Below, piece by piece: positions 47,204 through 59,445 of a stretch of 64,000 nucleotides of DNA (within the stretch, counting starts at the first letter, position 1; every line of letters begins with the position of its first letter). The stretch spans positions 186,001 through 250,000 of the forward strand of contig CAJXSL010000005.1 in NCBI GenBank assembly GCA_913060875.1, written 5' to 3'. Made by a program: the position numbers and the translations under genes. This stretch comes from an uncultured Desulfobacteraceae bacterium. GTDB taxonomy: Bacteria > Desulfobacterota > Desulfobacteria > Desulfobacterales > UBA5852. The notes below the pieces were generated by a model. It saw only the letters and a program-made list of their open reading frames with translations, had not been told where the DNA came from and ran no database searches.

Positions 47204-47926
47204 CTAAGCGAGTTTAAAGCTATCAAGATCTTCCTTGCGCTTACGCCAATCAGGCAGGCATCGGGTCAACAATGCATAGAACGCCTTGGAATGGTTGTGG
47301 TGCTTGAGGTGACATAACTCGTGCATAATGACATATTCTATGCAGTGCACAGGCACTTGAACCAATCGGGTGTTTAAAGTGATGCGGCCCTTCGGGCTGC
47401 AGCTGCCCCAGCGCTTTTTCATAGTCCGAATGGTTGTCAAGGGCTCCGGGACGCCATGCCGGGATGTAACAGCACTGCACTTTTTCAAATACCGTCCAAG
47501 GGTTTCAATGGCACGTTTGCGGTACCATTCATCAACGGTCCTCTTTACGATTGGTAAATTTTTATTGTCGGGAACATTTACCCTCAGAAAGCGACCGATC
47601 AGTTTTGAGGATCGTATTTCTGCTTGGAGCACCTTCAATCGATATTGCCTGCCAAGATAGACGAGGGTTTCACCGCTGACATATTGTTTAGGCGCAGGCA
47701 ATGGATGGTAGGTTTGAACTTGGTCGAGCTTGCTTGAAATCCATGCGGCTTTTTTGGCGATGGCGGAATCAATTTCAGCAACCCTTGAGTCGAAAGGCGC
47801 AAACACATCGACGGACAAATCCGGCGAGACAACAATCCGCAGCTTCTTTCTGTCACAGCGCTTTAGGTTATAGGAGATCTGGCGGGAACCGAATTGGATC
47901 GTACGGACTTCGATTTTATTCTTCAT
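47204..47926 (-). CDS. M48-type metallopeptidase (YgjP/DUF45), last gene of the hsd operon
   Basis: A 240-residue protein of the YgjP (DUF45) family. The zinc motif HELCHLKHHNH provides HExxH plus a nearby His, and RWGSCSPKGRITLNTRLV is the family hallmark. These proteins often follow hsdR; their role there is not established. The start ATG (47926) overlaps the hsdR stop by 11 nt. The longer frame upstream (to 48208) is rejected because it lies in hsdR. Confidence 0.85.
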   Translation of the reverse strand: MKNKIEVRTIQFGSRQISYNLKRCDRKKLRIVVSPDLSVDVFAPFDSRVAEIDSAIAKKAAWISSKLDQVQTYHPLPAPKQYVSGETLVYLGRQYRLKVLQAEIRSSKLIGRFLRVNVPDNKNLPIVKRTVDEWYRKRAIETLGRYLKKCSAVTSRHGVPEPLTTIRTMKKRWGSCSPKGRITLNTRLVQVPVHCIEYVIMHELCHLKHHNHSKAFYALLTRCLPDWRKRKEDLDSFKLA

Positions 47927-50900
47927 TGGCGATGGCCACTTCGATGCACTTGTCAATGATGGCATCCTGATCGTCCAAGGATATCTGGATTCCGCTCTTT
48001 TCCATAGCGTCAAACAAAATATCATCGATCTCGCCACGCATCTTGTTGATGGCATCAGGGTTCGTGCGCCAGTCACGAATCTTATGGGGGGCAATTCGAT
48101 CGACAATCTGAATGGCCGTCTCAGCCAGCGGTCTTTCGATATCACCCCCATAGCCGGCCATTCTTTCCCGAATCTGGCCATAGTAACGGCGGGCCATATC
48201 CCGTCCAACCAGCGTATCCGGGATATTGTCTTCGGTGTGGGTGACGACTTTTTCGGAAATATCCTTGATTTTTTCCAGGGCTTCCAAGGCCTGCAACCGC
48301 CCCTGATGATAGGCCTCGATCACCTCTTCCAGCAGCTTGGAAAATTTCTTGTAGAAGGCCGGATCTTTGGCCATTTCCTGTTCGATGGCATGCCGAGTGG
48401 CCGAGGCGATCATATCCGCCTTGGCATCCGTGCTTTTGCCATTTTCTTCTAGAACTTTCTGGCGCTCGGCGGCATTGAGCAAATTAATGGGGTTGCATAG
48501 CTGCTGCACCTCATCGGCACCGACATGCATATCGATAAGTTTTTTGATTTTGGGTTCGTACTCCGAAAAATCGATAGTCTCCTGAAACCGCTGGCAGACG
48601 TCAGCCCGGAGGTTCTGAAACATTTTGAGATCTGATTTGTAGCGTTGAATGGTTTTGACCGGTGTCTCTTCCAGAAAACGGCTGGACGACAAGGCCAGGG
48701 CCAGGTTCCGTGCAAACCGGCTGAAGCGTTCGTAAAACTTGTTACGCAAGTCATCGTCCCGCAGGTGAAGCGCGTAGGTTTCAGGATCGCGGGATCCTTT
48801 CACCGGATCAAACAGCTCCCACAGGCTGGAATGCAGTTGGGGCAGTTCAGCGGCTTTCTCGCTAATGTAGGTGACCGTTTCCTCTAAATCCATCCGGTCA
48901 TAGTCCGCCAGTTGACTGTAGAAATCGATGGCTTCGTCAAGATTTTCGATCACACCACTATAGTCGAGGATTAAGCCGTATTCCTTGGCATCGTGCAGAC
49001 GATTGACCCTGGCGATGGCTTGCAGCAGGGTGTGCTCCTTGAGCTTTCGGGCCAGATAGAGCACGGTGTTGCAGGGGGCGTCAAAACCGGTGAGCAATTT
49101 ATCCACCACAATGATAATCTCTGGCGTATCACCGTGTTTGAAAGCGTTGATGACCTGCTGATTGTATTTCTTCTCGGACCCGTAACGGTCCATCATCTCC
49201 TGCCAGAAAACCGATTCCCGTTCCGAGGGACCTGCGCCCTTGTCCTCGCCCTCTCGCTCGGTGGGGGCTGAAATCAATACCTCGGACGTTACCATGTCGA
49301 AACCGTCCAAGAACTGTTTGTAGCGCAAGGCCGTTTCCTTGCTGGGCGTCACCAATTGCCCCTTTAGCCCGGTATTTTGGAAAAACACGGCATAGTGCAG
49401 GCTCACGTCCCAGGCGATCATGCGGACTTTCTGCTGTGCTTTGTTAAGTTGACGCTCGGTGGAAAATTTACGTTTGAGATCGGCCCTTTGATCCTTGGTC
49501 AGCCCACGGGTCTCGATAGCAAACCAATTATCAATAGTCCCCTTTTCAACTGTCTGGGGAACATGGCGCGCTTCGTAGAGCAAGGGCACCACTGCCTTGT
49601 CTTCCACAGCCCGGGCGATCGTGTAAGGCGGTTGAAACAAATCACCGAACTGGAGGAAGGTATTCTTTTTGGCGGACTTGGCCAGGGGCGTGCCCGTAAA
49701 CGCGATAAAGCAGGCCCCCTTAAGTGCCAACTTCATCCGGGCATGCTGCTCGCTGTATTGGCCGCGATGGCCTTCGTCCACCAGGACAAAGGTATTGCGA
49801 TCGGCACGGGTCAACCTGTTGTTGGCGGTAGCCGTGGCAAATTTATGGATCAACGTGGTGACGATGTGGGTACGATGATCCAGCAGCAAATCCACCAGGT
49901 GCTTGCCGGTGTTGGCCTGTTCCGGCTCCAGGTTGCAGGCACGGAAAGTTCCGCAGATCTGGTCGTCCAAATCGATGCGATCCGTCACCAAAACAATTTT
50001 GGGATTGGCAATGCCTGGATGTAACGCCAAAGACTTGGCCAGCATCACCATGGTCAGGGACTTGCCGCTGCCCTGGGTGTGCCAAACCACGCCGCCCGGA
50101 CGCGGACTTTCCGCCGAAGCGCTCAGCACGCGCTTTATGATGTCTTTAACGGTAAAATATTGCTGATAGCGGGCAATCTTTTTGACACCGTTATCAAACA
50201 GAATGAACTGGTAGACCAGTTCCATCAGTCTCTGGGGCCGACAGAGCGCATACAGTGCCCGGTCCTGTTCGTAGATCTCACGCCCCTCTTCGAGCATGGC
50301 GAGGAAGGTGCCGCGCGATTCCAGAAAAGGTCCGGACAGCAGGCGGTCAGACTCTTCAGGCGTCAGCGGTTGGCGGATTAACTGCAGAATGGGCTCATCG
50401 ATCCCGGTTTCTTTCCACGCCGACCAAAATTTGCGCGGCGTACCTGTAGTGCCGTACTGGGCCTTGTCCCGGGCCAGTGCCAGCAAAAGCTGACTGTAGA
50501 GAAAGAGCTGGGGAATGCCATCCCTGGCCTGATAGCCGGCCAGTTGCTTGATGGCTGCATCAATGGGATCTTTTTTTATATCGGCGTAGGCGGAGCGTTT
50601 GCATTCGATCACCACCAGGGGGATACCATTCACGAAAAGCACGATGTCCGGGATATAGTGTTTGTCCAGCCCCACCCGCTCCACCTTGAACTCGGCTGTG
50701 CAGTGATAGCTGTTGTTGGATGGATTTTTCCAGTCGATGAAGTCGATGGTAAAACTCTTGGTATCGCCCTCTATGGTCTGCGGCTCACTGGTGCCCAGGC
50801 AAAGCAGGTCATAGGCCTGTTCGTTTTGATGGAGCGCACCGGTGACACGGAAGTCTTTCAATTTTTGAACAGCGCCCTGGATGGCGTTTTCCGTAAACGG

Positions 50901-51134
50901 ATGGACAGCCCCCTTGAAGGTGAAGCGGCAGTGCGCCCGGATGTAGTCCACCAGCAGCGGTTCCAGAATCGCCCCCCCCAGGCGATCCCCCCGCATCCGG
51001 TTGGCTTCGTCGGGCGGCAGGTATTCCCAGCCCAGTTGCATCAGCAGGTGCAAAGCCGGCAGCTGGGACTGGATCTTCTCCAAGTAGCTGGGCCGTTCAT
51101 GAAAACCAATACCGAATCCGGATTGTTCTTCCAT
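47916..51134 (-). CDS. hsdR: Type I restriction endonuclease subunit R
   Basis: A 1072-residue HsdR. N-terminal nuclease domain with IPDIVLFVNGIPLVVIECKR (PD-ExK core), then the helicase part with Walker A WHTQGSGKSLTM, the DEAD-like motif LVDEGHRGQY, FTGTPLAKSAKKNTF and the late VDKLLTGFDAPCNTVLYLARKL. It cleaves and translocates DNA as part of the HsdRMS complex. ATG 51134 is the first Met of the family start. It ends overlapping the M48-type peptidase gene. Confidence 0.95.
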   Translation of the reverse strand: MEEQSGFGIGFHERPSYLEKIQSQLPALHLLMQLGWEYLPPDEANRMRGDRLGGAILEPLLVDYIRAHCRFTFKGAVHPFTENAIQGAVQKLKDFRVTGALHQNEQAYDLLCLGTSEPQTIEGDTKSFTIDFIDWKNPSNNSYHCTAEFKVERVGLDKHYIPDIVLFVNGIPLVVIECKRSAYADIKKDPIDAAIKQLAGYQARDGIPQLFLYSQLLLALARDKAQYGTTGTPRKFWSAWKETGIDEPILQLIRQPLTPEESDRLLSGPFLESRGTFLAMLEEGREIYEQDRALYALCRPQRLMELVYQFILFDNGVKKIARYQQYFTVKDIIKRVLSASAESPRPGGVVWHTQGSGKSLTMVMLAKSLALHPGIANPKIVLVTDRIDLDDQICGTFRACNLEPEQANTGKHLVDLLLDHRTHIVTTLIHKFATATANNRLTRADRNTFVLVDEGHRGQYSEQHARMKLALKGACFIAFTGTPLAKSAKKNTFLQFGDLFQPPYTIARAVEDKAVVPLLYEARHVPQTVEKGTIDNWFAIETRGLTKDQRADLKRKFSTERQLNKAQQKVRMIAWDVSLHYAVFFQNTGLKGQLVTPSKETALRYKQFLDGFDMVTSEVLISAPTEREGEDKGAGPSERESVFWQEMMDRYGSEKKYNQQVINAFKHGDTPEIIIVVDKLLTGFDAPCNTVLYLARKLKEHTLLQAIARVNRLHDAKEYGLILDYSGVIENLDEAIDFYSQLADYDRMDLEETVTYISEKAAELPQLHSSLWELFDPVKGSRDPETYALHLRDDDLRNKFYERFSRFARNLALALSSSRFLEETPVKTIQRYKSDLKMFQNLRADVCQRFQETIDFSEYEPKIKKLIDMHVGADEVQQLCNPINLLNAAERQKVLEENGKSTDAKADMIASATRHAIEQEMAKDPAFYKKFSKLLEEVIEAYHQGRLQALEALEKIKDISEKVVTHTEDNIPDTLVGRDMARRYYGQIRERMAGYGGDIERPLAETAIQIVDRIAPHKIRDWRTNPDAINKMRGEIDDILFDAMEKSGIQISLDDQDAIIDKCIEVAIANEE

Positions 51135-51143
51135 GGGAGGCTC

Positions 51144-52346
51144 CTATGGTTTTACACGCACTTCACCGGTTAGCAGCTTTTGCATGAGACCGCGTTTTTG
51201 TTTCTCAATGAATTTGAGCTGCCTTTCCATATCAGCAATCTCTCTATCTGCCTCGGCAAGCACATTTGAGATAGCCTGCTGCTCATCTATTCCCGGCAAC
51301 GGCACCCTGATCAATGAAAATTCCCGCCACCTTAGACTTCCCCGCCTATCAACTGATGAGTTGGTCGATATTGAAAATATGTGCCGAAATGTCTCTGTTT
51401 TAAATACGGCATATAAATATTCCGGAACAACCTTCTCAGAACACTCAAAAACGGTATAAATAGGGCTGACAATCCCTGCGTCGTGTTCAGAAACCAGTCC
51501 TATTGAACCTTCCTCAATATGGTTGGAAGGATATCCAAACCAGCCGCGCCGGATGATTTTATAATTGGAAGTGTCCTCGCTAAAAACCTTTTTTCCGAAG
51601 TACTGGGACGATTCAACAAAGCCTTTATGTTTCGAGCATGATAATACGGTTGCCTTGCCATTTCCTTTGTTTCGCTCCGAACGTTCTTTTGCTATTTCCC
51701 TTAACGACGGGCATGCCCAATCAATCGGTAAATCGAAAAAACGATGTGCTTCCCGGCCCTTTTTTTTCATGAAACCGGGCAATCTTGATTTACCCATTAA
51801 CAATTGCTGCATAAGCGCTTTTTTCTGGTCTTTTTTTTGGAAGATGAGTTTTCGGGTTTGGTTGATGGCCTCATCCCATGTTGAGATTAATCCAGATATT
51901 AGCTTTTGAGTTTCGAGGGGGGGGATTTGGACTGGGATAGCGGCAAAATCTTTATAATAAAGCCTCAACCGGTCACCCGTAATGCCGTATGAGTAGGATT
52001 TCAGCTTGTGAAGCATAGCGGGAGTTTTTAAAAAATAGTAAGCAAATTGCGAATCGATATCCCCATTTGGTCTGCATACGACATAGGCGGGGCTCACCAA
52101 TCCATCCTGCTTAACCACGGCCACAGCCCCCTGCCACATTCGCATCATGTTGTATACAATATCCCCGGATCTCACCAGGAGGCTTTTCTCTGGTGGAAGA
52201 TCTGGAGCCATTTTACGGGATAAGGTTTCCCTATTTACGATTCCTGAATTCATCGTTACAGACAATACCGGCAATCCCTTTTTACCGGCTTCTCTGCTGT
52301 TTTTAAACAAATTCCCCAGTCTGGTTTCTATCATTGAAAGATTCAT
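51144..52346 (-). CDS. hsdS: Type I restriction specificity subunit S (full length)
   Basis: A 400-residue HsdS with two target-recognition domains and two conserved coiled-coil regions: PPLETQKLISGLISTWDEAI near the middle and PLPGIDEQQAISNVLAEADREI near the end. It determines the recognised DNA sequence. It overlaps the rhuM gene by 4 nt (ATGA). A second, half-length S gene lies at the other end of hsdM. Confidence 0.92.
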   Translation of the reverse strand: MNLSMIETRLGNLFKNSREAGKKGLPVLSVTMNSGIVNRETLSRKMAPDLPPEKSLLVRSGDIVYNMMRMWQGAVAVVKQDGLVSPAYVVCRPNGDIDSQFAYYFLKTPAMLHKLKSYSYGITGDRLRLYYKDFAAIPVQIPPLETQKLISGLISTWDEAINQTRKLIFQKKDQKKALMQQLLMGKSRLPGFMKKKGREAHRFFDLPIDWACPSLREIAKERSERNKGNGKATVLSCSKHKGFVESSQYFGKKVFSEDTSNYKIIRRGWFGYPSNHIEEGSIGLVSEHDAGIVSPIYTVFECSEKVVPEYLYAVFKTETFRHIFSISTNSSVDRRGSLRWREFSLIRVPLPGIDEQQAISNVLAEADREIADMERQLKFIEKQKRGLMQKLLTGEVRVKP

Positions 52347-53392
52347 TTCTTTTGTTCTTTTAAGTTGCTAATCGAACGCTGCTTTTCCAACCGTTTCATT
52401 TTCGCTGTTGCGATTTCAAAATGATGTTCGACAAGTGTCGCGTCGTTAAAATGTAATTCCTGGTATTTTTCATATTCTAACCGCGCCTTCTCTATAGCGT
52501 CATCATGGCTGATCTTTCCGGCGTGAGCTAAAATCTCCCGGTCGCTGATACGCAGGAACTCATCAAGCTTCGCTATCCAGTCCTGCATATACATTGGTTT
52601 ACGATTCAGGGCCTGGAATTCGGCAAATTCCAGATAGATGGTGACGATGCGGTTCAGGGCATCCAACTCCTGCTCGGTGAGATAATTCTTGGCAATTTCG
52701 GCATCGGCTTTTCGGGGCTTGTCGCCGGCCCAGGCGGTGAGGCCCATGTTCGCTCTGTTGGCATCCGCGCGCCCGGCCACGATTTCGGCGGCGGTGTGGC
52801 CATGGGCGGCCCAGTGCATTTTATTCTGGACGACGGAAAAGAAATGGCGGGACATTTCGGTATTGGGGTCGTAATCGATGCTGGTGGCATAGATATCCAA
52901 CACCTTGCGCCAGAACACCTTTTCAGAAGAGCGGATGTCGCGGATACGGGCCAGCAGTTCGTCGAAATAACCGCCGCCGCCGGCCTGCTTGAGGCGTTCA
53001 TCGTCCAGGGTGAACCCCTTGATAATATATTCGCGCAGCCGCTGGGTGGCCCAGATGCGAAACTGGGTGCCGCGATGGGAACGCACCCGATAACCCACGG
53101 AAATAATGACATCAAGATTATAAAAAGCCACTTGGCGGGTTACGTGACGGCCGCCTTCCGGTTGAACCGTTGCATATTTTGCAACAGTTGATTCGCGACG
53201 CAATTCGCCTTCTTGATAAATGTTATTGATGTGCCGCGATATTACTGACTTGTCGCGCTGAAATAAAGTTGCTATCTGATTGAGAGACAGCCAGACAGAT
53301 TCTTTTTCCAGCCGCACATCAATCCGTGTCTGACCATCCTCGGTCTGATAGATCAGGATATCGGATTCTGGAATGGGCAAGTTGTCGGACAT
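52343..53392 (-). CDS. RhuM family protein inside the hsd operon
   Basis: A 349-residue RhuM (virulence protein RhuM) family member: MSDNLPIPESDILIYQTEDG, then VWLSLNQIATLFQRDKSVIS with a HTH-like segment, TRQVAFYNLDVIISVGYRV and FRIWATQRLREYIIKGF. RhuM genes are often inserted in type I restriction loci and may act as accessory nucleic-acid-binding proteins; the function is unknown. ATG 53392 has AAGGGA upstream. It sits between hsdM and hsdS. Confidence 0.88.
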   Translation of the reverse strand: MSDNLPIPESDILIYQTEDGQTRIDVRLEKESVWLSLNQIATLFQRDKSVISRHINNIYQEGELRRESTVAKYATVQPEGGRHVTRQVAFYNLDVIISVGYRVRSHRGTQFRIWATQRLREYIIKGFTLDDERLKQAGGGGYFDELLARIRDIRSSEKVFWRKVLDIYATSIDYDPNTEMSRHFFSVVQNKMHWAAHGHTAAEIVAGRADANRANMGLTAWAGDKPRKADAEIAKNYLTEQELDALNRIVTIYLEFAEFQALNRKPMYMQDWIAKLDEFLRISDREILAHAGKISHDDAIEKARLEYEKYQELHFNDATLVEHHFEIATAKMKRLEKQRSISNLKEQKK

Positions 53393-53408
53393 AAGCAATC
53401 CCTTAATT

Positions 53409-54950
53409 CTATTGAATAAAGCCCAGTTCCTTCAGATAACCGTTCATTTTCTTGCGTGTCTCAACCAATTCGGTTTCGATCGCCTCGATTTCGTCCTGCA
53501 CAGCCTTAATGTCGATCTCCGGCTCAGGCTCAAAAGTGTCGACATAGCGCGGGATGTTGAGATTAAACTCGTTTTCCTTGATTTCCTTGAACGTGGCCGC
53601 ATGGGCATACTTGTCGATGCTTTTGCGTTTGCGGAAAGTGGCTACGATTTTTTCGATATCCTGGGGCCTCAGTTTATTCTGGTTGGTGCTTTGTTCATAT
53701 TCGCGGCTCGCATCGATAAAAAGGATCCGACGGTTCACTGCCCGCGCTTTATCGAAAATCATCAGGGCGGCGGGGATGCCGGTGCCGAAAAACAGGTTGG
53801 CCGGCAGGCCGATGACGGCATCCAAAAGGTTTTCACGGATGACCGCCTCCCGGATCTTCCCCTCCTGGCCGCCACGGAACAACACCCCATGGGGCACCAC
53901 CACGCCGACCCGGCCGCTGCCTTCCACGGCGGTGGCCAGCATGTGGGATATAAAGGCCCAATCGCCCTTGCTTTTGGGGGGGATGCCGCGCTGAAAACGG
54001 CCGAAGCGGTCTCCGGCCGCCATCTCCTGTCCCCATTTGTCCAAGCTGAAAGGCGGGTTGGCGATGACCACATCAAATTTCATCAGATTACCATGCTGAT
54101 CTTTAAATAAGGGATGCCGCAAGGTATCTTCCCATCCGATGTGGGCCGCATCCACACCATGCAGGAACATGTTCATCTTGCACAAGGCCCAGGTGCTGCC
54201 GTTCATTTCCTGTCCGTAGAGGGCATAGTCATCCGAACCCACCTGCTTCCCCGCCCGGATAAGCAGGGATCCGGAACCGCAGGCAGGGTCGCAGATGCGA
54301 TTACCGGATTGGGGCGCCACCAATCTGGCCAGGGTTTCGGACACGGCGGCCGGGGTATAAAACTCCCCGGCTTTTTTACCGGCGCTGGCGGCAAATTTTT
54401 CGATGAGATACTCGTAAACATCGCCGATGACATCCATGTGACCCACGGATTCTTTACGCAAATCCAGATCCACCAAGTCTTCCAACAGGGTTTTCAGGCG
54501 GTTGTTGCGCTGGCGCGTCTGCCCCAGGTTGGCTTCGCTGTTGAAGTCGATATTGCGAAACACATTGTGAAGTTTGGCTTTGTTGGCATCTTCAAGCTGC
54601 TCCAACAGAATATTGATGAGAGCACCGATATTGCTTTGCGTCCGACGCTCGTAAAGGCTGTCGAAGGTGGCAGGGAAGCTGTCTTCGATTTCATTTTTGT
54701 CGCCCATCAATTCTATCTGCGGGATATAAAAACGCTCGAGCTTCATGGCCCGCTCGATGCGCAACCGGTTGCCGCGGTATTTTTTCTCAAATTCCGCCAG
54801 TTTCGATTTATGGATATCACTGAGGTATTTCACAAACAGCATGGTAAGGATGTAGTCTTTATACCCCGCAGGATCGATAACCCCGCGAAAGGTGTCACAG
54901 GCCCGCCAAACCGTATTGAAAATCACATCACGTTTTTGCTCGTCATTCAT
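53409..54950 (-). CDS. hsdM: Type I restriction modification subunit M
   Basis: A 513-residue N6-adenine methyltransferase. SAM-binding motif ICDPACGSGSLLIRAG, catalytic NPPFSLDKW and AGEFYTPAAVSETLARL. It starts with the HsdM_N helical domain (FNTVWRACDTFRGVIDPAGY). With HsdS it methylates the target sequence and protects self DNA. It lies 13 nt downstream of the half-length S gene. Confidence 0.95.
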   Translation of the reverse strand: MNDEQKRDVIFNTVWRACDTFRGVIDPAGYKDYILTMLFVKYLSDIHKSKLAEFEKKYRGNRLRIERAMKLERFYIPQIELMGDKNEIEDSFPATFDSLYERRTQSNIGALINILLEQLEDANKAKLHNVFRNIDFNSEANLGQTRQRNNRLKTLLEDLVDLDLRKESVGHMDVIGDVYEYLIEKFAASAGKKAGEFYTPAAVSETLARLVAPQSGNRICDPACGSGSLLIRAGKQVGSDDYALYGQEMNGSTWALCKMNMFLHGVDAAHIGWEDTLRHPLFKDQHGNLMKFDVVIANPPFSLDKWGQEMAAGDRFGRFQRGIPPKSKGDWAFISHMLATAVEGSGRVGVVVPHGVLFRGGQEGKIREAVIRENLLDAVIGLPANLFFGTGIPAALMIFDKARAVNRRILFIDASREYEQSTNQNKLRPQDIEKIVATFRKRKSIDKYAHAATFKEIKENEFNLNIPRYVDTFEPEPEIDIKAVQDEIEAIETELVETRKKMNGYLKELGFIQ

Positions 54951-54963
54951 TTGTCGTCCTTAT

Positions 54964-55545
54964 CTATCCACTTTTTCGAATCGCTTTAACGCAGGCCGCT
55001 GTAATCAAACTCACACGTTTTTCAGCCAATTGGTGCAGAAGCGCGCACTCCTTCTGCATGAGCATGGCCAAATCGGCAACCTTCTCTTGGGTTTCAAGGG
55101 GAGGTACAGGCACATCGATGCCTTCCAGCACCGCACGTTTCACCACCGGCATATTCACGCCTCGCCCGCTATGCTGGTTCAGGTAGTGGGCCACGGGTTC
55201 CTGGTTGAGATACCATTTCAGGTAATTCGGCAGGATCTGACGGGTATTAATCCGAATAATGAAAAAACAGGCGGCTGCCAGAACGTCATCCGGCAAATCG
55301 TCCTTTACCATAACGGTAAAATTTCGAGCCCCCCGCGCCATAAATAAAAGATCCCCCGCCTTCAGGGTCCAATCCTTTGAAGATTTCACCGGATTGAAGC
55401 GCACCATGGTGTCCACCTCATACGAGAGGCTGTCCGCATTCACATCTCGGGCTTGGAGCAAACAATATGGACCGTCGTCCTGGGGTACGATCCGGCCCCG
55501 GGTGATATAGCCACTCTGAATTTCAGATAGTGCATCGAGTCTCAT
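54964..55545 (-). CDS. Half-length type I specificity subunit S
   Basis: A 193-residue HsdS-like protein with only one target-recognition domain (about 1-120, MRLDALSEIQSGYITRGRIV) and one coiled coil (PPLETQEKVADLAMLMQKEC). Half-length S subunits can work as homodimers or as regulatory partners. ATG 55545 is the family start. It is the promoter-proximal gene of the hsd operon and divergent from the CBASS-like operon. Confidence 0.88.
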   Translation of the reverse strand: MRLDALSEIQSGYITRGRIVPQDDGPYCLLQARDVNADSLSYEVDTMVRFNPVKSSKDWTLKAGDLLFMARGARNFTVMVKDDLPDDVLAAACFFIIRINTRQILPNYLKWYLNQEPVAHYLNQHSGRGVNMPVVKRAVLEGIDVPVPPLETQEKVADLAMLMQKECALLHQLAEKRVSLITAACVKAIRKSG

Positions 55546-55714
55546 AGCCCCATTCAAATAACACAGTATGATAGTAACTGCAAATATATTTACAATATTT
55601 TTATTTTATTTTATGCAATATATAACATCTTGCTGAAATATTATTTGACATTAAATCATTTTGTATTACAGTTATGTTCATCTTGCGATAACTTTTATTT
55701 TGAAAGGAGCGTCC
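55546..55714. promoter_or_regulatory. Divergent AT-rich promoter region between hsd and CBASS-like operons
   Basis: 169 bp, strongly AT-rich compared with its neighbours. TTGACA near 55644 and TATTAC about 13 nt later are a poor pair. GAAAGGAG lies just before the first CBASS-like gene. Both operons should start here. Confidence 0.45.
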
Positions 55715-56221
55715 ATGACCATTGATGACGATCAGAAATTTCAGGTGCTGTTAACCCAGCTTCAGGAGCGCTACTGCGCTTCGCACAATATGAGGGAGCG
55801 AAGCACGCAGTTTGCCTTATGGATTTCCGGCATGGCCATTGGGCTTGCGTGGCTCTTGATCAGCCAACCCGGTATGACGCTTATGCAGCGAATTGCATTG
55901 ACGTTGTTGATAGGAGCGCTCTCCGTCGGCAGTTTCATTTTTATGAAAGGCTTGCAGAAGGGCTTCAACAACAACCGCAAGGCCATGATCGCCTGCGAAA
56001 AGTCATTAGAGCTGTATGAAACGGGGGTTTATTTAAAGGAATGCCCGCTGCTGCCCGACGCCTATGCCCAAAACAGCCACCGATGGAGCGATCATTTCAA
56101 CACACTGATTGTTTGGCTATCGATTGTCATCCTATCGCTGGTCATCCTCACATGGACATGTCCTCAGGCACCTGCCGAAAATTTGCAGACCATTCAAACC
56201 CAAGAACAGAAGGAGCGATAA
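55715..56221 (+). CDS. Three-helix membrane protein, likely CBASS effector (SLATT-like)
   Basis: A 168-residue protein with predicted helices at about 33-50 (FALWISGMAIGLAWLLIS), 58-78 (MQRIALTLLIGALSVGSFIF) and 128-149 (HFNTLIVWLSIVILSLVIL). The N-terminal and inter-helix parts are helical and charged. Small multi-helix proteins next to CD-NTases usually form pores after binding the cyclic nucleotide; the family (SLATT-like) is inferred, not shown. ATG 55715 has AAAGGAG upstream. The next gene starts 3 nt after its stop, so one operon. Confidence 0.72.
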   Translation: MTIDDDQKFQVLLTQLQERYCASHNMRERSTQFALWISGMAIGLAWLLISQPGMTLMQRIALTLLIGALSVGSFIFMKGLQKGFNNNRKAMIACEKSLELYETGVYLKECPLLPDAYAQNSHRWSDHFNTLIVWLSIVILSLVILTWTCPQAPAENLQTIQTQEQKER

Positions 56222-56224
56222 AAA

Positions 56225-57208
56225 ATGACCGACCTTCATAAGGAGTTTGGCACATTTCATGACCGTATTGCGTTAACGTCAGCGAAAAAAGCAACCTTGC
56301 GCACCGCCCGCGATGCAATTCGCGAACGTATTCGCAAGTATTTTCGCGAAAACCTGAAATTGAAGATCCCCAAATTCCGCGGGCAAGGCTCTTATGCCAT
56401 GGGTACAACCGTCAATCCGATTGGCGGGGAATATGATATCGACGACGGTGTCTACCTCCAGCATTTGGACAACCAAAACGACAGCGACTGGCCGGCAGCG
56501 GCTACCGTCCATCAATGGCTGGTTAAGGCCACCGATGGCCATACCAGTGAAAAACCGATGGACAAACACACCTGCGTTAGGGTTCGGTACGCCGGACAAT
56601 ATCATGTGGACCTGCCATCTTACGGCGAGCTGAATGGTCTATACCTGCTGGCCGTTAAGGACGAACCCAAATGGCGCCATAGCGATCCGCTGGCTTTGAC
56701 GGATTGGTTCGTTGAACAGGTAAAATTACAGGGGGAACAGCTTAGAAGGGTTGTTCGATATCTGAAAGCCTGGGCTGATTTTCAATCCAACCGGCGCGGT
56801 AAAATGCCCAGCGGACTGATCCTTACCGTCCTCGCCGCCCAGAACTTTAAAAGCCACGAGAGGGATGATGTCGCTCTGACCGATACGATTCAAGCAATTT
56901 CAGATGCCGTAAGCACAGCTTTCTACGTTTTTAATCCGGTTGACATCAGCGAGGAGTTGACGGCCCGCTTAACCGATATTCAGAAAACTCGCTTTCAAGA
57001 TGCCATTAAAAAAGGTGCTGAAGACGCAAACGAAGCCGTCTCAAAGAAAGACAGCCACGCAGCATCCAAACAATGGCGCAAACACTTGGGGGACCGTTTC
57101 CCTCTGGTGGCTAAAAAGAACGACAACGGCACGGCAAAACATACGGCTGCCAGCATAGCTGCGGTCCATGCCCGAAAGAATCCGCCCAAACCGTGGAGCT
57201 GGCGCTAA
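56225..57208 (+). CDS. CD-NTase (cGAS/DncV-like nucleotidyltransferase)
   Basis: A 327-residue cyclic oligonucleotide synthase. Catalytic core: GQGSYAMGTTVNP (54-65, Gly55-Ser56), GEYDIDDGVYL (69-78, Asp71 and Asp73) and the third acid Asp129 in YHVDLPSY. This is the pattern of active CD-NTases used in CBASS. The OAS-like helical domain follows. It should make a cyclic di- or trinucleotide in response to phage. The C-terminus ends PPKPWSWR, with no terminal Gly as usually seen in CD-NTases that are conjugated by Cap2-type enzymes. The stop overlaps the start of the E2-like gene (TAATG). Confidence 0.9.
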   Translation: MTDLHKEFGTFHDRIALTSAKKATLRTARDAIRERIRKYFRENLKLKIPKFRGQGSYAMGTTVNPIGGEYDIDDGVYLQHLDNQNDSDWPAAATVHQWLVKATDGHTSEKPMDKHTCVRVRYAGQYHVDLPSYGELNGLYLLAVKDEPKWRHSDPLALTDWFVEQVKLQGEQLRRVVRYLKAWADFQSNRRGKMPSGLILTVLAAQNFKSHERDDVALTDTIQAISDAVSTAFYVFNPVDISEELTARLTDIQKTRFQDAIKKGAEDANEAVSKKDSHAASKQWRKHLGDRFPLVAKKNDNGTAKHTAASIAAVHARKNPPKPWSWR

Positions 57209-57963
57209 TGTCGCAGTGGTATCAGCATAACCACAGCCTGTTTCGCGAAGAACGTAAAAGGCTGGCGGAAGCATGCGAGCTGATGATGCTCTCAGTTGTC
57301 GCGCCGGGTTTTCCTATCAATTCAGCCGTATTAACAAACACTGAATGCGCTATCGCCCATGGGACATATTCGATCCAAGCAAAAGACGGGCGTGGTGAAA
57401 TCGAGTATGGCATCACCCTATGGACACCTCCAAATTATCCCAAATTGCCACCAGTTTTGTTTGGCAACGATCCCAAATTGCCGACTGAAAATATCGATCG
57501 CCATATCCCCTTTAATGGGCAAGCCTGCCTTGCTGTTAATAGCGAAATTGAGCTGCATTGGCCTCCCGGGTCAAACCTGGTTGATTTCATCGAGAAACTG
57601 GTTGCTCCGTTCTTAGCCTGGCAAGCCTATTATGACGCATTCGGTTACCCGCCTTCCTGGGGTGGAAGGTCGCATGGAAACAAGGGCATTTTTGAGTTTT
57701 ATACCGATATTCTCGGAATGAGCGGCGATAAGATCATTGTAGGTTTCATGAAATTGCTTGAAAGGAAAAAACCGCCGAAAGGCCATGAAATCTGCCCATG
57801 TGGTTCAGGAAGAAAGCTGCGCGATTGTCATCAAAATCTACTGAATGAAACACGCCGCATTCTCAACCCGAAAAAGGTGAGGATGGATTTGGCGATAATA
57901 GACGGAAATTCGGGCCCAAAAATTACCCGTAAAAAAAGGATCCCGCCCTTTCGGCACAAATAA
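57208..57963 (+). CDS. E2-like (Cap2-type) protein fused to a SEC-C motif
   Basis: A 251-residue protein. The first about 150 residues have E2-fold features: NYPKLPPVLFGND, then HIPFNGQACLAV with the catalytic Cys107, and WPPGSNLVDFIEKLVAPFLAW. This matches E2-only CBASS proteins of short type II systems. A C-terminal SEC-C metal motif CPCGSGRKLRDCH (Cys196, Cys198, Cys207, His208) is added; SEC-C binds zinc. No E1 domain is fused. It overlaps the CD-NTase stop by 1 nt, so translation is coupled. Confidence 0.8.
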   Translation: MSQWYQHNHSLFREERKRLAEACELMMLSVVAPGFPINSAVLTNTECAIAHGTYSIQAKDGRGEIEYGITLWTPPNYPKLPPVLFGNDPKLPTENIDRHIPFNGQACLAVNSEIELHWPPGSNLVDFIEKLVAPFLAWQAYYDAFGYPPSWGGRSHGNKGIFEFYTDILGMSGDKIIVGFMKLLERKKPPKGHEICPCGSGRKLRDCHQNLLNETRRILNPKKVRMDLAIIDGNSGPKITRKKRIPPFRHK

Positions 57964-57986
57964 AACACGGTGATTAGGAGATGATT

Positions 57987-59219
57987 GTGATTGAAGAAAA
58001 AAGGCGACCGCGACAATCGTTTACACGCGCCCTGAAAAATATTGCCGATCGGATCGATTCGCATATCACGTTCGAGGCAGAATATTACAACAGTTTTTTA
58101 CATAAGAAGGAGCGGGTCGTTTTCCGAGTCAATGCGCTGTGGGCCTTCGGATCGTGGGCCAAGGGGGCGCTGGACTGCGGCGACTTGGACCTGATGGCAG
58201 ACATCAGCATGGTGGAAGGCTTCATGCCATTTGAAAGTGTCATCCGCCGAGTTTTGGTAAAAAGGGCGCGGGATGTGCGCCTTTATATCGGAACGCCTGA
58301 AAAGAACAGTTCAAGGGCAATCATCGAAGACGCGATCTTGATATGGTCGCCTGAAAATCGTGATTGGAAAGCCAATATTGCCGGCATCAAGTCCAATCCA
58401 GCAATAAAAAGATTCCAGCGAAAAACGGACATCATTCCGTTGCGCAACGAACAGTTATATGCCGAGATTGACGCAATTGAGGCGGTTGTGGACTTACGGG
58501 AAAAAGGCATCTTGGATTGGTCGTGGGTTCCCTTTCCGGAAAAGGAACCCGAAATAGACAAATGGACCTCTACATCAAAGAAAGCATTTGAGCGGATTTC
58601 AAATCACAGTGGTGTAAAAACGGCAACGGCAATGAAACACGTCATCAACTGGTTTGAGAAAAACGAACCCATCAGGACATGGAAATTCGATAACGATAAC
58701 AGAGCCGCCTTTTGGATAAACGGAAAACGTATCCATGTAGGCAGGCCGTGCCTTGATCAATTTTACATCGATCACCATTCTTGCAGTGGCATAATGCTTG
58801 TCCCCCACATAACCAAACGCGGACCCAATGGTATATGGCATATTCGTCGGGGGAAAGAGCATCCACTTGAAAAAATGTTTTTGAGGGCAAGCGGCTTCAC
58901 TATAGTGGGTTCGGATGGTAAGCCCGATATCATTGAAGCAATTTCAGGCTGGGAGTCCGTTAATTTAATCGAAATGTTCAGAAGCTGCAAAGACGCTGAA
59001 GAATTCCTCGAGGATATTTCTGAAGATTTAACGGATGATTGTAAGATTGGCAAAATATCGAGCAAAGACTTGCTTAACGCCATAAGTTGTGTTGACCAAC
59101 TTTCAATTGATTGGGAATTCTATGCAATTACGATAAAAGGCACTCGTTTTGATGGGGAAAAATTTGGCCGCCCAAAGCCGGAAGAATTGATGACACTTTT
59201 AAACACTGACAGAGCGTAG
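57987..59219 (+). CDS. Second nucleotidyltransferase-fold protein in the CBASS-like operon
   Basis: About 410 residues. A minimal Pol-beta core is visible: ALWAFGSWAKG followed by CGDLDLMADI, giving Gly-Ser and a D-x-D (about Asp66/Asp68), typical of MNT-type NTases rather than CD-NTases. The remaining 300 residues form an unrecognised domain with several conserved-looking segments (AFWINGKRIHVGRPCLDQFY, GFTIVGSDGKPDIIEAI). GTG 57987 has AGGAG at a proper 6-nt spacing; ATG 57981 touches that site. It is the last gene of the operon (18-nt gap to the E2 gene), and such a gene is not a known core CBASS component. Confidence 0.7.
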   Translation: MIEEKRRPRQSFTRALKNIADRIDSHITFEAEYYNSFLHKKERVVFRVNALWAFGSWAKGALDCGDLDLMADISMVEGFMPFESVIRRVLVKRARDVRLYIGTPEKNSSRAIIEDAILIWSPENRDWKANIAGIKSNPAIKRFQRKTDIIPLRNEQLYAEIDAIEAVVDLREKGILDWSWVPFPEKEPEIDKWTSTSKKAFERISNHSGVKTATAMKHVINWFEKNEPIRTWKFDNDNRAAFWINGKRIHVGRPCLDQFYIDHHSCSGIMLVPHITKRGPNGIWHIRRGKEHPLEKMFLRASGFTIVGSDGKPDIIEAISGWESVNLIEMFRSCKDAEEFLEDISEDLTDDCKIGKISSKDLLNAISCVDQLSIDWEFYAITIKGTRFDGEKFGRPKPEELMTLLNTDRA

Positions 59220-59368: not shown

Positions 59369-59445
59369 TGGTGCCGAGGGACAGATTTGAACTGCCGACA
59401 CGGGGATTTTCAGTCCCCTGCTCTACCGCCTGAGCTACCTCGGCA
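59369..59445 (-). tRNA. tRNA-Phe (anticodon GAA)
   Basis: 77 nt including an encoded CCA. Acceptor stem TGCCGAG/CTCGGCA, D-arm GCTC-AGGCGGTAGAGC, anticodon arm with ACTGAAAATC (GAA anticodon), and T-arm GTTCAAATC. It lies at the right border of the defence region, with its 3' end toward it. Confidence 0.95.

Follow-up and report, generated by a model that had tools for sequence, protein, structure and literature searches.

The window, a 64,000-nucleotide stretch of the genome of an uncultured Desulfobacteraceae bacterium, encodes a nucleotidyltransferase (NTase)-fold protein of 412 amino acids in an intact open reading frame on the forward strand (57981..59219). The preliminary description had placed this frame at 57987-59219; the frame is real, but its start is the ATG at 57981, with TAGGAG just 5′ of it, and the position given, 57987, is a GTG in the same frame two codons further in. 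The NTase gene is the fourth of four co-directional genes. The first (55715..56221, forward strand) encodes a SLATT-like membrane (TM) protein that none of the library models matches and that is found beside the cyclase in relatives too; it is presumed to be the CBASS effector. It is followed by a CD-NTase, a DncV/cGAS-like cyclase of CBASS (56225..57208, forward; NCBIfam NF041078, 1.3e-72), and an E2-like CBASS protein with a SEC-C motif (57193..57963, forward; PADLOC E2, 6e-41). These three genes fit a type II short CBASS (cyclase, E2, and TM effector). The NTase gene begins after a 17 nt gap behind E2, closely spaced and on the same strand as the cyclase and E2 genes in this genome. Directly 3′ of the island is a tRNA-Phe (GAA) gene at 59369-59444, a possible integration site of the island.

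Beside the NTase island, the genes of a type I restriction-modification (RM) system are all present on the reverse strand: hsdR (47916..51134), hsdS (51144..52346, 400 amino acids), and hsdM (53409..54950), with a gene for a RhuM-family protein inside the operon (52343..53398). Next to hsdM on the same strand is hsdS2 (54964..55557), which encodes a single-TRD HsdS-like protein (half-HsdS) of 197 amino acids and marks a slot that holds variable cargo genes. We found hsdS2 in 17 of 389 sampled genomes.

Between hsdS2 and the cargo lies a divergent promoter region (55558-55714) with three boxes, conserved across genomes irrespective of cargo. Box A (CACAGTATGATAGTAACTGCAA, 55562..55583, forward) has the pattern CAC[AG]GTA-N8/9-ACTGCAA, which occurs in 15 of 18 hsdS2 loci (0.0 expected from dinucleotide shuffles), and half-sites of the ATCTTGCA type were seen 15 times, whatever the cargo, against 0.22 expected; because the patterns were derived from these very sequences, the excess is a measure of conservation and not an independent test. 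Box B (TGCAATATATAACATCTTGCT, 55614..55634, forward) is an imperfect inverted repeat, and box C (TACAGTTATGTTCATCTTGCG, 55667..55687, forward) overlaps the -10. These two boxes flank a promoter-like TTGACA-16-TACAGT (55645..55672, forward; TTGACA at 55645, TACAGT at 55667) of the CBASS and NTase unit. The best promoter-like site (10/12) precedes the TM gene, and the total number of sites found is not above chance. There is no promoter-like site directly 5′ of the NTase gene, nor is there anything in the window there that resembles the box-bearing region, which stands before the SLATT-like gene. The NTase probably shares one transcript with the SLATT-like, cyclase, and E2 genes of the CBASS, a module unrelated to it, from the operator-bearing promoter of the slot. 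This layout is consistent with insertion of the CBASS between promoter and NTase, or with addition of the NTase behind the CBASS.

In a search for a regulator gene, no further exact copies of box A were found in the same genome outside the locus. The boxes change where hsdS2 has strongly diverged (GCATCA...TGATG in locus L087), and these few sequences suggest that HsdS2 itself might be an autoregulator that binds them.

The NTase protein is predicted to consist of an N-terminal Pol-beta-like palm, a helical middle (residues ~148-228), and a C-terminal mixed alpha/beta domain (~230-412); its AlphaFold2 model has a pLDDT of 90 and a pTM of 0.79. The GS...DxD core claimed earlier is there: GS (57-58), AKGA, and CGDLDL (66-71) are all present, beyond chance, and the motif reads GS(57-58)-X9-D68-L-D70. 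Of the 24 relatives aligned, whose identity to the window protein reaches down to 26%, 23 retain the core. In the alignment, S58, A60, G62, A63, C66, D68, and D70 are kept in 23/24 and G57 and G67 in 24/24. The third acid was said to be unclear, and we agree: the candidate column D117, which was placed by predicted strand order and not by model coordinates, has D in just 14 of the 24 sequences, N in 6, and G, S, or E in the rest. Elsewhere in the alignment, R147, D150, R155, Q158, and a G-P-N-G at 281-284 are invariant, and D150 was considered as a candidate alternative third acid. Pairwise dN/dS values of 0.16-0.23 show that selection acts on the protein (purifying).

From the motif and its conservation, we predict that the NTase is catalytic. 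The lack of a conserved third metal-binding acid counts against this, as does the loss of GS and DxD in one RM-linked relative (G027/L021; locus L009:7199-8557). This copy is the only relative from which the DxD is gone. In its open frame, GS has become GP and DLD has become ALN; it also carries an insertion of about 40 residues, yet is 40% identical to the window protein over residues 6-134. Both features would fit a pseudoenzyme that transfers nothing: a nucleotide or second messenger would bind to the palm, and the C-terminal domain would pass on the signal. We consider this unlikely, given the 23 relatives that retain the core and the long tree branch of the odd copy (1.24), which is compatible with its decay.

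The NTase family is without a specific model in Pfam, NCBIfam, PADLOC, or PHROG, and the window protein alone has no useful match in Pfam, NCBIfam, or PADLOC. The Pfam profile DNA_pol_B_palm matches 20 of 24 family members (best 1.2e-5) over the GS...DxD core only, and the match is absent or under the curated cut-off in six members examined singly. Sequence searches of the PDB gave nothing but sub-threshold Pol-beta palm matches. Foldseek returned a weak Pol-beta palm match for the model and weak Tic22/TTHA0547 matches (E 4e-3 to 5e-2) for the whole model and for residues 186-412; against viral structures, it returned solely weak matches, to unnamed and Tic22-like proteins. Based on the predicted structure, we tentatively describe the C-terminal domain as Tic22/TTHA0547-like, a likeness with no bearing on function. 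The C-terminus matched no known unrelated enzyme.

The protein had been named an MNT-type NTase. The nucleotidyltransferase assignment holds, based on the motif, its conservation, the Pol-beta-palm profile matches, and the fold model, but the MNT type is doubtful. MntA (HEPN/MNT, PF01909) and the NTase are both Pol-beta-superfamily proteins with GS...DxD, and both are encoded by accessory genes. However, MntA-type proteins have a GSX10DXD motif and are paired with a HEPN gene (PMC7641770). The family described here differs: its 23 conserved members have GSX9DXD, there are about 300 extra residues, and no HEPN partner was identified among the neighbors scanned, a subset of all neighbors. Motif spacing and the weak profile matches suggest that a Pol-beta palm fits the NTase better than MNT does. 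Searches of the same genome for PF14792 and PF01909 gave no useful comparison sequence.

The Pol beta/family X palm (PF14792) is the best profile family and has GSX9DxD (GSxxRGA...GDxD) in common with the NTase, as well as weak structural matches, but only the palm core aligns. The third catalytic Asp expected on the following strand in family X is not conserved (column 117), the lyase, fingers, and HhH domains were not found, and the C-terminal domain is unrelated. The shared motif and palm matches, together with the gene order NTase-ERCC4-RecQ in loci L010 and L011, could point to a PolX-like DNA-end or repair NTase that works together with the RM system or the ERCC4 nuclease and RecQ helicase. 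Such a role is quite unlikely: in addition to the missing Asp and domains, ERCC4-RecQ can fill the slot with no NTase present (L085; the L083 sequence stops after the nuclease), and the NTase is also found without ERCC4-RecQ.

In the preliminary description, the NTase was the fourth gene of a CBASS operon and could AMPylate a partner such as the CD-NTase or keep something inactive until infection. Its place behind E2 and the ability of MntA-type proteins to AMPylate an operon partner (PMC7641770) speak for this reading; the locus evidence speaks against it from both sides. The window SLATT-like, cyclase, and E2 proteins had zero tblastn matches in 33 loci (454 kb) around NTase relatives, although the queries were the window's own proteins, so very divergent CBASS types could escape, and repeats (L009/L021, L006/L018, and L013/L032) leave fewer than 33 independent loci. 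At E 1e-30, relatives of the cyclase were detected in 10 of 389 genomes. Eight loci that contain a close relative of this CBASS (L052-L058, L061) lack the NTase; their SLATT-like, cyclase, and/or E2 genes keep the same order, and some are degraded or truncated where a contig ends. The NTase occurs alone or with other modules. The CBASS-gene claim therefore falls, and the claimed action on the operon is not supported. AMPylation of the CD-NTase is unlikely, and very little probability goes to the reading as a whole, in which the NTase AMPylates a partner from the operon, be it the CD-NTase, E2, or another, or keeps the system silent before infection in the manner of an MNT antitoxin; the GSX9 rather than GSX10 motif and the lack of an identified HEPN partner also weigh against it. 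Co-transcription with the CBASS in the window genome could have created a local functional link.

The cargo of the hsdS2 slot varies. It consists of CBASS genes in the window, L052, L056, L058, and L079; an MBL-fold gene with or without E2/ThiF/JAB in L080, L082, L084, L086, and L087; an ERCC4 nuclease with or without RecQ in L083 and L085; the NTase alone in L009; the NTase followed by ERCC4-RecQ in L010 and L011; and other genes in L081. The window pairs CBASS with NTase, and both modules therefore behave as independent cargo. The NTase gene is divergent from hsdS2 in 4/4 Desulfobacterales copies; three adjoin it directly, and in the window the CBASS stands in between. Such constancy would suit an RM-linked factor that modulates HsdR, HsdM, or HsdS activity, but no Hsd homologues were found in the loci searched around the Pseudomonas and Variovorax copies, and RM loci of the same type occur without the NTase. 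Protein matches to the RM system (33 loci, tblastn) are confined to Desulfobacterales, with the exception of one RhuM homologue in L033. We regard an RM-modulating role as highly improbable.

NTase relatives were found in 15 genome loci and 12 viral contigs; a search of phage records with the NTase gave no match. They are present in four Desulfobacterales genomes, including the window genome, whose copies form one clade in the tree (support 100/100), and on megaplasmids of Pseudomonas, Variovorax, and Caballeronia. Many Pseudomonas copies lie within prophages, and the Pseudomonas prophage and megaplasmid copies have neither RM nor CBASS. In one Pseudomonas prophage (L027), the NTase gene is located between HTH repressor/anti-repressor genes and the integrase, a zone that is a usual seat of lysogenic accessory genes. 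Clusters of neighboring genes recur across many other Pseudomonas NTase loci. No directly adjoining gene is a conserved partner from locus to locus, which makes it less likely that the NTase requires an antitoxin or a substrate partner.

We conclude, with a probability of roughly 0.6, that the NTase is a stand-alone, probably anti-phage accessory enzyme of mobile and defense loci and not a CBASS component. The company its genes keep suggests the anti-phage role. The family is small and would combine the Pol-beta-like palm with a family-specific C-terminal domain and work as a stand-alone enzyme. During infection, the NTase may transfer NMP to a substrate of the cell or the phage, the likeliest acceptor being the 3′ end of a nucleic acid such as tRNA, as with the MenT/AbiEii toxins, and the C-terminal domain may supply recognition of the target or trigger. 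It would act independently of cGAMP signaling, tied to the CBASS by position and shared regulation only.

The nucleic-acid substrate is predicted by analogy. Since no partner gene stays constant beside the NTase, MntA-type AMPylation (PMC7641770) is the weaker of two analogies; tRNA-modifying NTases (PMC10435456) are the better one, without a sequence match for membership. AbiEii/MenT (DUF1814) toxins (PMC10435456) have Pol-beta-like motifs, accessory loci, and a two-part layout in common with the NTase, but the likeness is at superfamily level only: none of the 24 members matches the DUF1814 (AbiEii/MenT) profile in Pfam at E 0.1, and no antitoxin gene was identified.

There is precedent for defense genes that lie within a type I RM locus and are controlled by an RM-proximal repressor (PMC12255303). 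The EPEC RMS-DarTG2 locus with RptR (PMC12255303) resembles the slot in having defense genes in a type I RM locus, a shared promoter, and three operator repeats. The slot differs in that it is divergent beside hsdS2 and has other boxes, and a separate regulator gene was not found; the RptR site TAGCTA is absent from the window. We found no open-access paper on this NTase gene or the hsdS2 slot. A bolder and rather unlikely reading is that the slot is an RM plug-in site for defense, whose divergent three-box promoter drives any module, with HsdS2 maybe as controller, and that the NTase is an antitoxin-free, single-gene anti-phage plug-in. If so, the family would represent a new NTase of this kind. 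Alternatively, the cargo genes of the slot may work for the RM system.

The lead of a fourth CBASS protein with the cyclase as its AMPylation target is removed, and two testable leads replace it. One is an unnamed NTase family common to RM islands, megaplasmids, and Pseudomonas prophages. The other is an RM-linked, commonly regulated slot where CBASS, ubiquitin-like conjugation, helicase-nuclease, and NTase modules interchange, and whose position offers a way to discover further defense modules.

Two of the slots (L082:2982-7154 and L084:903-5144) encode an LmuA-like MBL-fold protein, an E2-ThiF-JAB fusion (about 780-830 amino acids), and a small unnamed protein; this cargo is a candidate ubiquitin-like conjugation defense module. 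The helicase-nuclease module (L083, L085:5422-8772, L010, and L011) is made up of an ERCC4-HhH nuclease, a 23S_rRNA_IVP-like protein, and a RecQ-like helicase. In L052 and L080, the first reading frame in the slot after the divergent promoter is small and SNase-like (KVIDGDTF..., named by eye).
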